From positions 1-22,123 of IMG/VR virus record IMGVR_UViG_3300035703_000430: 22,123 nt of DNA. One strand, given 5' to 3'. Origin of the DNA: a virus. A model generated the notes under the pieces. The model saw nothing but the letters and a program-made list of their open reading frames with translations, was not told the DNA's origin and searched no databases. Both the position numbers and the translations under genes were made by a program. This document shows positions 11,553 through 22,121 of this stretch, piece by piece. Every line of letters begins with the position of its first letter. The first letter of the stretch is position 1.

Positions 11553-11600
11553 TTTCGCGGACCTTTGGTTCGCGCATCAAGCATCCTCAAGGACATTCCC

Positions 11601-12833
11601 ATGGACGTTGTCGACCTGCCGCTCGAGCAGATCATTCCCTATGCGCGCAATCCGCGGCGCAACGAGCAGGCAATCGCGACGGTCGCGGCCTCGATCCAGG
11701 AATTCGGGTGGCGCCAGCCTATCGTTGTCGACGAGGCGATGGTGGTTCTCGCTGGGCACACGCGGCTGGAAGCGGCGCGCAAGCTCGGCTTCAAGACCGC
11801 GCCGGTGCATGTCGCCAAGGGGCTGACTGTCAGCCAGGCGCGTGCTTTTCGGATCATGGATAACCGCTCGAGCGAGAATGCCGAGTGGGACAAGGACCTG
11901 CTGAACCTCGAACTGTCGGACCTGCTGGAGGCTGATTTCGATCTCGGGCTGACGGGCTTCACAGACGACGAGTTGAACGCGCTAATGTCCAGCCTCGAGG
12001 AGGGCACCGGTCCGCAGGAGGGTGAGGACGATGTTCCGGAAACCCCTGAGGATCCGATCAGCCGCCCGGGCGATCTCTGGATCCTTGGCAACCACCGGCT
12101 GCTCTGTGGCGACAGCACGGTCGCGACGGATGTCGAGCGCCTGCTCGGCACTGTAAAACCGCTCCTGATGGTGACAGATCCACCCTACGGCGTGGAATAC
12201 GATCCGAGCTGGCGCAACCAGGCAGGTGCGGCAAAGACCAAGCGCACCGGCAAGGTGCTGAATGACGACCGCGCCGATTGGCGTGAGGCCTGGGTGCTGT
12301 TTCCGGGGGATGTCGCCTATGTCTGGCACGGTGCCTTGCACGCAGCGACAGTGGCCGAAAGCTTGGAGGTCGCAGGCTTCACCATCCGGTCCCAAATCAT
12401 CTGGGCCAAGGATCGGCTGGTACTGAGCCGGGGTGATTACCACTGGCAGCACGAGCCCGCTTGGTATGCCGTGCGCAAATCCGGCAAGGGCCATTGGGCG
12501 GGGGACCGCAAGCAAACCACGCTCTGGCAGATTGCCAACAAGGATCAAGACGAAAAAACCGTGCACGGCACGCAGAAGCCCGTCGAATGCATGCGGCGGC
12601 CGATCCTGAACAACTCGAGCCCGGGTCAGGCGGTCTATGAGCCCTTCATGGGATCGGGCACAACACTGATCGCAGCCGAGACGACTGGACGGGTCTGTTA
12701 CGGCATCGAACTGAACCCGGCTTACGTCGATGTGGCGGTTGCGCGCTGGCAGAAGTTCACCGGCAAGCAGGCGTTGATTGATGGTAGCGACACCACTTTC
12801 GATGCGCTGAAGGCAGAGCGCGCGGCCGCATGA
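11601..12833 (+). CDS. ParB-domain / DNA (N4 or N6) methyltransferase fusion
   Basis: A 410-residue fusion. The N-terminal ParB/sulfiredoxin-like nuclease domain (about 1-130) carries NPRRNEQAI and VVLAGHTRLEAARKLG (GHTR at 52-55). The C-terminal DNA methyltransferase carries catalytic DPPY (TDPPYGVEY, 192-200) before the AdoMet-binding FMGSGTT (349-355). This is the beta-class order typical of phage adenine or N4-cytosine methylases. No restriction enzyme is beside it, so it is an orphan methylase, perhaps shielding phage DNA from host restriction or mimicking host methylation. ATG 11601 with AAGGA 7 nt upstream is preferred to a TTG at 11565. Its 3' end overlaps the next start (ATGA). The target sequence cannot be read from the sequence. 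Confidence 0.92.
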   Translation: MDVVDLPLEQIIPYARNPRRNEQAIATVAASIQEFGWRQPIVVDEAMVVLAGHTRLEAARKLGFKTAPVHVAKGLTVSQARAFRIMDNRSSENAEWDKDLLNLELSDLLEADFDLGLTGFTDDELNALMSSLEEGTGPQEGEDDVPETPEDPISRPGDLWILGNHRLLCGDSTVATDVERLLGTVKPLLMVTDPPYGVEYDPSWRNQAGAAKTKRTGKVLNDDRADWREAWVLFPGDVAYVWHGALHAATVAESLEVAGFTIRSQIIWAKDRLVLSRGDYHWQHEPAWYAVRKSGKGHWAGDRKQTTLWQIANKDQDEKTVHGTQKPVECMRRPILNNSSPGQAVYEPFMGSGTTLIAAETTGRVCYGIELNPAYVDVAVARWQKFTGKQALIDGSDTTFDALKAERAAA

Positions 12834-20237: not shown

Positions 20238-20548
20238 TGACGGCCTTCGCGGACGCGCTGGAGGTGCTTTTTGCGGATAAGAACATCGCCGTCGAGGTCT
20301 GGTACCGCGACGGGGCAGGGGCCTTCACACGGGCGCGGGGCATCCTGCGTCGCCCCGACGAAATTACGGAGTTTGGCGCGACGCGGCTTCTCTCAGACAC
20401 CACCCGGATCGACGTCCGGGTGGCAGACATCCCCAATCCCCGACCGCAGGAGCAGATCCTGATAGGAGATGAGACATTTTTGATTGAGGGTGAGCCGCGC
20501 CGAGATCGGGAGCGGCTCATCTGGACAATGACCCTCTGCCCCGCGTGA
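20237..20548 (+). CDS. Head-tail joining protein, gpFII-like
   Basis: A 103-residue protein (lambda gpFII 117) directly after the major capsid gene. Its pattern of beta-strands (VEVWYRDGAGAFTRARGILRRP, TRIDVRVADIPNPRPQEQILIGDETFLIEGEPRRDRERLIWTMTL) fits FII-type connectors that lock the head to the tail. The assignment rests on strand pattern, length and gene order. The start overlaps the capsid stop (TGATG), and its stop overlaps the next start. Confidence 0.8.
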   Translation: MTAFADALEVLFADKNIAVEVWYRDGAGAFTRARGILRRPDEITEFGATRLLSDTTRIDVRVADIPNPRPQEQILIGDETFLIEGEPRRDRERLIWTMTLCPA

Positions 20549-21174
20549 GTGCGATGCATCTGAGCCTCAACATTGATCCTGACATTGTGGCGCTCATGCG
20601 GGAAGAGATTGCCACCGGCGAGCATGCGGTGTCGACGGCGATCCGCGAAGCCAGCACGCGCCTGAAGTCAGCTTGGCGCGGCCAGATTACGGGCGCGGGG
20701 CTTGGCACCAGATTGGCGCGCAGCATTCGGTCCGAGCAATATCCAAAGGGCAAACCCAGTCTGAACGCGGCGGCTCTGGTCTGGTCGAAGGCTCCGATGA
20801 TCATCGGCGCGCATGACACTGGCCCTCTCATCCAATCGAAAAGCGGTCTATGGCTCGCGATCCCAACGCCCGCGGCCGGTAAGTCCGCGCGTGGCGGTAG
20901 GATCACGCCCGGCGAATGGGAGCGCCGTACCGGCTTGAGGTTGCGGTTTATCTATCGACGCCAGGGGCCGAGCCTCTTGGTGGCTGAGGGGCGGCTCAAC
21001 ACCAAAGGCCGGGCTGTGGCGTCGCGCTCCAAGACCGGTCGGGGCCTCCTGACCGCACCAATCTTTTTGCTCGTGCCGCAGGTAAAGCTGGCCAAGCGGT
21101 TGGATTTGGCGAGGGCCGCCGAGGCGGAGTTGGGACGTGTGCCGGGAGCGATTGTGGCAAGCTGGGTGGCGTGA
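20545..21174 (+). CDS. DUF6441-type minor tail protein, gpZ-like
   Basis: A 209-residue protein (lambda gpZ 192) in the Z position, resembling DUF6441. It has a long N-terminal helix (IATGEHAVSTAIREASTRLKSAWRGQITGAGLGTRLARSIRSEQYP), strands such as APMIIGAHDTGPLIQSKSGLWLAIPTP, and a C-terminal LLTAPIFLLVPQVKLAKRLDLARAAEAEL. The GTG at 20545 overlaps the preceding stop (GTGA); an ATG at 20554 is possible. It probably shapes the tail end that joins the head. Its function is inferred from position. Confidence 0.78.
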   Translation: MSAMHLSLNIDPDIVALMREEIATGEHAVSTAIREASTRLKSAWRGQITGAGLGTRLARSIRSEQYPKGKPSLNAAALVWSKAPMIIGAHDTGPLIQSKSGLWLAIPTPAAGKSARGGRITPGEWERRTGLRLRFIYRRQGPSLLVAEGRLNTKGRAVASRSKTGRGLLTAPIFLLVPQVKLAKRLDLARAAEAELGRVPGAIVASWVA

Positions 21175-21228
21175 AAGCCATACAGCCCGCTGCATCCATA
21201 AACGATTTGAGCGGTTTGCAAGAGAGAT

Positions 21229-21304
21229 TGGTAGGCCCGGAGGGACTCGAACCCCCAACCAAGGCGTTATGAGCGCCCGGCTCTAACCATTGAGCTACAG
21301 GCCC
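21229..21304 (-). tRNA. tRNA with CAU anticodon (tRNA-Ile2 or elongator tRNA-Met), antisense in the late operon
   Basis: A complete cloverleaf on the minus strand. The acceptor GGGCCTG (5') pairs with CGGGCCT (3') with two G-U pairs. D-arm GCTC/GAGC, anticodon stem GGGCG/CGCCT around loop CTCATAA (CAT), and T-arm GGGGG-TTCGAGT-CCCTC follow. Discriminator A is followed by an encoded CCA. The body is 73 nt plus CCA. It is not an initiator: there is no 1-72 mismatch and no GGG/CCC base of the anticodon stem. The D-arm and variable region (TTGGTTG) look closest to tRNA-Ile2, where C34 is changed to lysidine, but elongator Met cannot be excluded. It sits between phage structural genes and is read against them, so it needs its own promoter. 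None is obvious upstream (beyond 21304). Confidence 0.92.
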
Positions 21305-21348
21305 AGCCGAGCGCCTCTGTGATCGATTTTTTGTCAGAGAACAACCCA

Positions 21349-21774
21349 ATGCCCACCCAACGCGAAATCATCTTAACCGCCTTGGCAGATGCCTTTCGCA
21401 CGATCCCGCATGTGCCGGTTCTGCGCGGCGAGGTGCTGCCTGAGCGCATCCCATCCGCAGGGCTGCTGATCCTGCGCGACGGCAACCCGGGCGATCCGGA
21501 GGTCACACTGTCCCCGCTGCGCTATCACTACCAGCAGCGGGCGGAACTTGAGGTCATCGTGCAGGCAAGCGGTGATCGTGATACACGATTTGACCAACTC
21601 ATCGCCCGGATAGGTGCCGCCATCGCTGTTGAGCGTACATTGGGTGGGCTCTGCGACTGGGTCGAGCCGGCAGCACCTGAGCCTGTCGATCTCGCTGTTG
21701 AAGGGGCAACCAGCCTAAAGGCAGCCGTTGTGCCCATCATCCTACATTACTCGCTGGCCGATCCACTTGGCTGA
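21349..21774 (+). CDS. Tail terminator / minor tail protein, gpU-like
   Basis: A 141-residue protein (lambda gpU 131) with the alpha/beta pattern of tail-terminator proteins. It has QREIILTALADAFRTIPHVPVLRGEVLPERIPSAGLLILRDGNPGDPEVTLSPLRYHYQQRAELEVIVQA, DTRFDQLIARIGAAIAVERTLGG and ATSLKAAVVPIILHYSLADPLG. It would cap the tail tube at the head-proximal end. ATG 21349 is used because family members usually begin near MPTQRE; a GTG at 21319 would add ten residues. No strong ribosome binding site is visible. It is the last phage structural gene seen. The tail-tube (V) and later tail genes are absent from the window, and its 3' end overlaps the antisense bactofilin by 28 bases. Confidence 0.8.
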   Translation: MPTQREIILTALADAFRTIPHVPVLRGEVLPERIPSAGLLILRDGNPGDPEVTLSPLRYHYQQRAELEVIVQASGDRDTRFDQLIARIGAAIAVERTLGGLCDWVEPAAPEPVDLAVEGATSLKAAVVPIILHYSLADPLG

Positions 21775-22121
21775 GCGGGTTCCGGGGGCGGGGTTATCAT
21801 TCTCAGATGGCCCTCGATCATCGCCCCGGCTTCCACGGCCAGTTTGGAGTAATGAACTGAGCCGTTGATTTGACCGGAATGTGCAACCCGGACATCCTCC
21901 GCGATCACAGCGCCAACCACGACGCCTTCAATCGTTGCCTGCTTGGCCTCAATGTCGCCCTTTACATTGGCCCAATGCTCAATCGTCACGATCTCACCGG
22001 TGATGTTGCCGACAACACGCGCTTGAACCACCAAGGGGCCTCTGCTGGTAATATCACCCGTGACTTCGAGATCCGGTGCGAGGACGGAAGGTTTTGCCGT
22101 GCTTGGTGTGAGAGTGGTCAT
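21747..22121 (-). CDS. Bactofilin (polymer-forming cytoskeletal protein)
   Basis: A 124-residue protein with the bactofilin (PF04519) pattern. A short, disordered N-terminus precedes a right-handed beta-helix of regular short strands: LEVTGDITSRGPLVVQARVVGNITGEIVTIEHWANVKGDIEAKQATIEGVVVGAVIAEDVRVAHSGQINGSVHYSKLAVEAGAMIEGHLRM (about 18-108). A Pro-rich tail follows (PPPEPAQPSGSASE). Bactofilins polymerise without nucleotides and act in cell shape, peptidoglycan and polarity. The gene is convergent with, and overlaps by 28 nt, the tail-terminator gene, in the place where the tail-tube gene is expected. It could be a cargo gene or mark the right host boundary of a truncated prophage. Its ATG is 2 nt from the window edge, so upstream signals are not visible. 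Confidence 0.88.
   Translation of the reverse strand: MTTLTPSTAKPSVLAPDLEVTGDITSRGPLVVQARVVGNITGEIVTIEHWANVKGDIEAKQATIEGVVVGAVIAEDVRVAHSGQINGSVHYSKLAVEAGAMIEGHLRMITPPPEPAQPSGSASE

Follow-up and report, generated by a model that had tools for sequence, protein, structure and literature searches.

An antisense CAU-anticodon tRNA gene in the slot between two phage virion genes, a candidate tRNA moron

The purpose of phage-encoded tRNAs is a long-standing question. In the available part of one report (PMC11555353), tRNA-Tyr of phages T5 and SP15 is set against retron-Eco7 and phage tRNA-Lys against PrrC170, and growth in the face of retron-Eco7 is rescued when a T5-like tRNA-Tyr is driven by a strong promoter. 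The locus described here resembles these systems, as that part presents them, in its grouped tRNAs and in a phage tRNA with a putative promoter of its own, but here a short antisense array, with a putative function only, occupies a cargo slot among tail genes. According to the available part of a second report (PMC10865867), tRNA-dependent lysogeny is established in mycobacteriophages; the likeness lies in a phage tRNA of a host isotype with an apparently single gene copy, whereas the arrays described here hold up to four isotypes and no link to an integrase locus was found. Phage tRNAs with variant anticodon loops (PMC10264068) are likewise phage-encoded tRNAs in an arms-race setting, but the anticodon loops of our phages are identical to those of the hosts. 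The locus shares with phage morons and lysogenic conversion loci its presence or absence between otherwise collinear virion genes, its foreign content and, if the putative promoter is real, a promoter of its own; unlike in these, the cargo here is RNA, in one fixed orientation and order.

Phage tRNAs, morons and counter-defence by tRNA are already known. In a superficial literature search, no precedent was recognised for a recurrent, ordered and always antisense tRNA array that swaps with toxin-antitoxin cargo at one virion-gene junction. The nearest deposited phages belong to the Rhodobacter phage cluster RcC (RcKemmy, PMC8601537), which carries homologues of both bordering genes, hereafter Z and U, at about 47% and 50% identity. 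In RcKemmy, Z and U overlap and the slot is empty, unlike in the DNA analysed here, and no such tRNA array was found among deposited phages with Z and U genes.

A CAU tRNA gene antisense to the structural operon

The window is the whole stretch of viral DNA that was analysed, with a length of 22,123 nucleotides. By ARAGORN, a single tRNA gene was found in the window, at 21229-21304 on the minus strand, with the CAU anticodon (CAT in the DNA) at 21269-21271 and an encoded CCA, and Rfam model RF00005 matched positions 21304-21232 with 65 bits (E 2.6e-12). The left border of the surrounding slot is a Z-like DUF6441 gene (PF20039, phrog_6367; 20545-21174, plus strand), and the right border is a U-like tail terminator gene (phrog_4204; 21349-21774, plus strand). 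The likely start of U is the ATG at 21349, the ORF list giving GTG at 21319; its relatives align from residue 1. The slot spans 21175-21348, Z and U overlapping by a few bases in relatives with an empty slot. The terminase, portal, protease, decoration and major head genes lie upstream of Z, all on the plus strand. As both Z and U are on the plus strand, the window tRNA is antisense to the structural operon. The first-pass annotation had described a complete CAU tRNA with CCA on the opposite strand between the Z-like and U-like genes, and this description was borne out by ARAGORN, by RF00005 and by the strands of the neighbours; the gene is real.

An assembly chimera was ruled out by the presence of the same junction in independent metagenome contigs (L337 and others). 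In addition, U of L344, a contig of 22264 bases, is 99% identical to that of the window, with a matching tRNA stretch adjoining. A host-junction artefact was also ruled out, by phage genes on both sides, by the recurrence of the junction and by the hosts' own Ile2 gene. The same observations dispose of the possibility, raised at first pass, that the tRNA is the only copy of a host tRNA disrupted by phage insertion: phage genes flank it, and 283 of 295 genomes of the host family match the phage tRNA at E ≤ 0.001. As genome completeness is not given for this set, the 12 genomes with no match carry little weight.

A CAU anticodon may stand for tRNA-Ile2 or for elongator tRNA-Met, and the first-pass annotation was right to put this question. 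In each of eight genomes with related prophages, a single gene resembles the phage tRNA at 88-99% identity, the other matches being 74-79% identical. A pattern search for the CAU anticodon arm and alignment of full genes gave three CAU classes in the hosts, fMet (CGCGGG...), elongator Met (GGCTAGG or GGCGCGG...) and the class of the phage tRNA (GGGCCTG...). These labels rest on resemblance to E. coli tRNAs, the second class being, as we take it, similar to E. coli elongator Met. Bacteria need three CAU tRNAs, namely fMet, elongator Met and Ile2. As three classes are required and the second looks like elongator Met, the GGGCCTG class was assigned to Ile2. By this comparison the window tRNA is almost certainly tRNA-Ile2, distinct from the hosts' fMet and elongator-Met tRNAs. 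Of the two identities proposed at first pass, Ile2 was upheld in 8/8 hosts, and elongator Met was ruled out by the host class comparison with its full-gene alignment.

The host Ile2 gene appears to be single copy. In one family genome (G036), a chromosomal tRNA is identical to the phage tRNA at 76/76 positions and adjoins ORFs that resemble, by eye, PurM and PurN; the nearest other hosts differ by one base (A26 for C26). The acceptor-stem pairs C4-G69 and C5-G68, a feature associated with E. coli TilS, are present in the window allele, and 11 of 12 phage alleles retain both. According to the available part of PMC12514573, the acceptor stem is used by TilS, but the enzymes differ.

Cargo slot and ordered tRNA arrays

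Relatives of Z were collected as the best 80 loci per search, more matches being in existence, from two viral-contig searches and one genome-contig search. The viral set comprised 136 loci after 22 duplicates were dropped, with L083 and L084 left out. Among the matches listed, Z and U overlap or abut in 14 of these viral loci, 108 carry an insertion and in 14 U was not found; the 80 genome loci, again among the matches listed, include 70 with an insertion, 10 without U in the locus and none with an empty slot. In deposited phages with both genes, U directly follows Z in 15/15, two of them judged from annotation and the rest from match coordinates. The 178 filled slots hold 244 ORFs of at least 100 aa, which fall into 142 families. 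Five slots hold no such ORF, and four of these are tRNA slots. Among the families listed, slot proteins match ParE, HipA, YhaV/PrlF, HigB-like Gp49, PIN_10 and SocA/Panacea, and also RelA_SpoT, Abi_C, viperin and QueC; these toxin-antitoxin and defence matches refer to family representatives and stand without a background rate, and many proteins match nothing. The slot of L006, the nearest relative of the window by Z and U, carries a GNAT protein and a TacA1-like partner, and that of L002 carries an HTH_3 protein and a Gp49 toxin. Judged from these comparisons, the Z/U junction is a hypervariable cargo slot and the tRNA is one of its states. As in a moron, some relatives have the tRNA and others lack it at a single site flanked by conserved phage genes.

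None of the first 80 viral loci gave a tRNA call with ARAGORN. An exact search with the 76-mer yielded three more contigs with the arrangement of the window. A degenerate Ile2 pattern matched 60 viral contigs; both the CAU tRNA and U were identified in 37, which together with the window gave 38 records, the remainder being other phages, contig ends or fragments. All 67 tRNAs in the 38 records lie opposite to U. Ile2 stands alone in 19 records, with Leu in 9 and with Leu and Ser in 10, and the same order, counted from U, recurs in 19/19 multi-tRNA records. The 5' end of Ile2 is located 40-47 nt from the start of U in 31/38 records, and the distance in the other seven is 345 (four records), 430, 433 or 3480 nt. 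A Leu-based pattern matched 23 contigs, four of them new, of which one was an unrelated array and three were new slot arrays; in the latter 11/11 tRNAs are antisense, and two arrays include a fourth tRNA, Thr(UGU). Altogether, in 41 records 78/78 tRNAs are antisense to U, in the order Ile2(CAU), Leu(UAA), Ser(UGA) and Thr(UGU) from U, for a sample biased by having been found through searches for Ile2 and Leu. A U search starting from L315 gave 5 loci. In the less biased Z searches, Ile2 was found in 4/122 viral loci with both genes, and another slot tRNA in 1/70 genome loci (an antisense Thr(CGU) in L220), both among the matches listed. The antisense position noted at first pass held, as one state of a conserved slot and not as an isolated case. 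Late antisense transcripts might titrate or block the tRNA, as proposed at first pass; that the orientation is conserved suggests tolerance of, or a preference for, the antisense position. A general antisense bias of the slot was ruled out, as the longest ORF lies on the minus strand in 96 and on the plus strand in 77 of the 173 slots with an ORF of at least 100 aa; in its fixed orientation the tRNA differs from the protein cargo.

Other contents accompany the tRNAs in some slots. The slot of L220 (5618-9890) contains a transposase-like gene pair and a large minus-strand ORF besides the antisense tRNA-Thr(CGU), and that of L329 (3486-7128) contains Leu and Ile2 tRNAs, a LysE-type transporter, a peptidoglycan-binding protein and a RES/Xre toxin-antitoxin pair. 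In L300 and L317, a Leu(UAA)-like stretch just beyond Ile2 matches the pattern and received no ARAGORN call.

A tree of Z and U was built with 96 rows that passed a length filter, comprising all 23 tRNA-bearing, all 13 empty and 60 of the 161 otherwise filled loci. The tRNA label needs 8 changes on this tree, 7 of them forced by well-supported branches. The window groups with L006 and L002, both with protein cargo, and then with the tRNA-bearing L337. tRNA arrays and toxin-antitoxin cargo are exchanged at this site. The set offers a clean natural comparison, with one site, one orientation, one order, one to four tRNAs and empty or differently filled siblings on the same tree.

An apparently single-copy host gene and a phage copy of the same isotype could also reflect tRNA-dependent lysogeny, in which the phage integrates into the only tRNA-Ile2 gene of the host and its own copy replaces the destroyed gene. 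Integrases were found in some tRNA-bearing records, of the tyrosine type in 1/19 and of the large serine type in 2/6, and a tyrosine integrase was found in 9/24 tRNA-free relatives, all of these records being possible fragments. This explanation would not account for the Leu, Ser and Thr tRNAs or for the fixed slot, and eight host genomes with related prophages keep the Ile2 match, those prophages being without Ile2 tRNA. The array tRNAs of L478 share no stretch of at least 12 nt with three integrase-bearing loci; an 11-nt Leu match was seen, and the published core is about 10 bp, a length that such a comparison could miss. We consider lysogeny of this kind very doubtful here.

Upstream elements, allele variation and codon usage

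A putative promoter of the tRNA is located at 21316-21344 on the minus strand, consisting of TTGTTC, a 17-nt spacer and CACAGA at a conserved position. In the window, the TTGTTC hexamer shares bases with the Shine-Dalgarno-like AGAGA of U, which lies on the opposite strand. Among tRNA upstream regions dereplicated at 80% identity, a TTG starts between -43 and -37 in 16/16, against a mean of 2.0 and a maximum of 7 in 2000 shuffles, the motif having been seen post hoc. CA is common 17 nt after the TTG hexamer, and the second hexamer is weak. The element was found again as TTGTTT-17-CATGAA in L478/L479, an independent lineage outside the discovery set; the upstream region of L480 is nearly identical to that of L310 and has no independent weight. 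Host Ile2 genes carry different upstream sequences, of the TTGAC...TGCTA type. Between 20900 and 22123, no sigma-70 promoter match was obtained with the E. coli consensus, and a scan for intrinsic terminators gave no terminator-like site; a terminator of its own is frequent in a moron and not obligatory.

That the TTG is a mere part of the ribosome-binding site of U is disfavoured by two observations: records with U at a distance of 345 nt to 3.5 kb still have the TTG, and an antisense promoter-like pattern, which was chosen once the data had been inspected, lies upstream of U in 15/27 distinct tRNA-bearing, 4/156 otherwise filled and 0/12 empty loci. The TTG element suggests that the tRNA may have its own promoter.

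The overlap of the putative -35 element with the U ribosome-binding site in the window, together with the tight spacing in 31/38 records, would also fit a regulatory element, in which the divergent promoter and antisense tRNA govern how U is expressed or act as an insulator of the late operon, the tRNA itself being of minor importance as a product. The array persists, however, in the 7/38 records with U 345 nt to 3.5 kb away, and relatives with an empty slot do without it, so that we regard such a role as highly improbable.

Next, the phage alleles were compared with each other and with those of the hosts. In the 12 phage Ile2 alleles, 99.2% of helix cells are paired, and three pairs are changed on both sides, for instance U7-A66 in the L152 group; the close relative L337 has one C4-C69 mismatch. 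This mismatch and the Leu-like stretches of L300 and L317 left uncalled by ARAGORN indicate that some copies may be decaying. Five of the 12 phage alleles have an identical counterpart among 38 host alleles, whereas those of L152 and L086 differ from the known host alleles. For Leu and Ser, identity to the closest host gene in the comparison is 77-96%. The published signature of evasion, a changed anticodon loop, is absent, as phage and host loops do not differ in the Ile2, Leu and Ser alleles that were compared.

Identity or near-identity to the host allele (5/12 identical), in a slot that accepts almost anything, is what would be expected of a neutral passenger, that is, of host tRNA fragments that recombination has brought into the slot and that are tolerated there; part of the host-like identity could be due to recent transfer rather than selection. 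Against a mere passenger, the upstream elements are unlike those of host genes, order and orientation are constant, the changes in Ile2 preserve pairing, and the Leu alleles, though diverged from the host genes in the comparison, are still called as tRNAs. Neutral carriage is therefore quite improbable in our judgement.

All four array tRNAs read A-ending codons, and codon compensation was examined as another explanation, in which the tRNAs raise the decoding of AUA, UUA, UCA and ACA, codons rare in GC-rich hosts and commoner in the phage. The raw comparison was positive: the 24 tRNA-bearing phages use more ATA, TTA and TCA than the 115 tRNA-free phages (Mann-Whitney p 0.008, 0.0002 and 0.0004). 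Among the same viral relatives, all included, the GC content of tRNA-bearing phages is lower (62.0% vs 65.9%, 24 vs 115), and once GC enters the model the excess of ATA is gone (tRNA coefficient -0.004, SE 0.005). Within the mixed clade, 14 tRNA-bearing and 19 tRNA-free phages show 3.3% vs 5.0% ATA, 1.0% vs 1.1% TTA and 12.9% vs 13.2% TCA. In the window, ATA accounts for 7/332 Ile codons in 23 genes, like in GC-rich hosts; the host values are 10/893, 18/825 and 28/911 in three hosts of 66-67% GC, and 43/503 in a fourth of 59% GC. The remark made at first pass, that help with AUA would be odd in so GC-rich a phage, thus agrees with the codon counts. Having failed both the GC model and the within-clade test, codon compensation appears unlikely.

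Possible role of the tRNA arrays and other observations

The explanation that we favour, if by a narrow balance of confidence, is that the window tRNA represents a self-promoted, functional copy of the single-copy host tRNA-Ile2, carried as a moron that tops up the tRNA supply, probably against depletion, in a cargo slot of phages of Rhodobacterales. The tRNA would be transcribed from its own promoter within the 44-nt interval that separates it from U, pointing away from U; with such a promoter, it could be made in the lysogen or in early infection without the late operon. Antisense placement would spare the late mRNA from cuts by RNase P and RNase Z between Z and U. Sense tRNAs would be excised and the late mRNA cut, so that only antisense arrays may survive. 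The product, joined in longer arrays by tRNA-Leu(UAA), Ser(UGA) and Thr(UGU), is predicted to supplement host tRNAs of low copy number whose codons are rare and end in A, presumably as an insurance against systems of the host or of rival prophages that destroy or block tRNAs.

The presence of toxin modules at the same site raises a further and wider idea. A GNAT protein with a TacA1-like partner, as in L006, is of the kind that acetylates charged tRNAs. The slot might then be a socket of an arms race, in which toxin-antitoxin or defence modules of sister phages, directed at tRNAs or translation, are opposed by tRNA arrays that let other phages, this one included, grow in cells guarded by such modules; we hold this to be a decidedly speculative view. 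If it were true, the array would be an antidote for the prophage stage and early infection, matched to low-copy tRNAs for A-ending codons. A direct match between Ile2 and GNAT toxins is weakened by the preference of ItaT, a GNAT toxin, for Ile-tRNA(GAU) over the AUA-reading tRNA, as stated in the available part of PMC9177977.

The slot is rich in uncharacterised, toxin-antitoxin-like and defence-like genes. Many slot families of at least 100 aa have no Pfam or PADLOC match and stand beside toxin-antitoxin pairs, and the slot (loci L002-L241) is a possible source of new defence genes. In L488 (NZ_CP061501.1, plasmid pRA03), the virion genes run up to DUF6441 and are followed by a recombinase, an ATP-binding protein and repABC plasmid genes; here the slot appears as a phage-plasmid junction.

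Downstream of the slot, a bactofilin gene (PF04519, E 4.8e-21) is located at 21747-22121 on the minus strand of the window, convergent with the end of U and antisense to the virion genes. Bactofilin is also found in L082, L337 and L306 at varying identity (98% in L337). It may be a neighbouring insertion, separate from the tRNA slot, and its presence in relatives suggests that insertions also occur at a second point, between U and the gene for the tail tube. Elsewhere in the window, a ParB-like nuclease domain and a DNA methyltransferase are fused in one ORF (11565-12833, plus strand). Finally, two deposited phages, OP858991.1 (Synechococcus phage) and PP438413.1 (Nostoc phage), carry this Rhodobacter-type head-tail module at about 54% identity, and their stated hosts are therefore worth checking.
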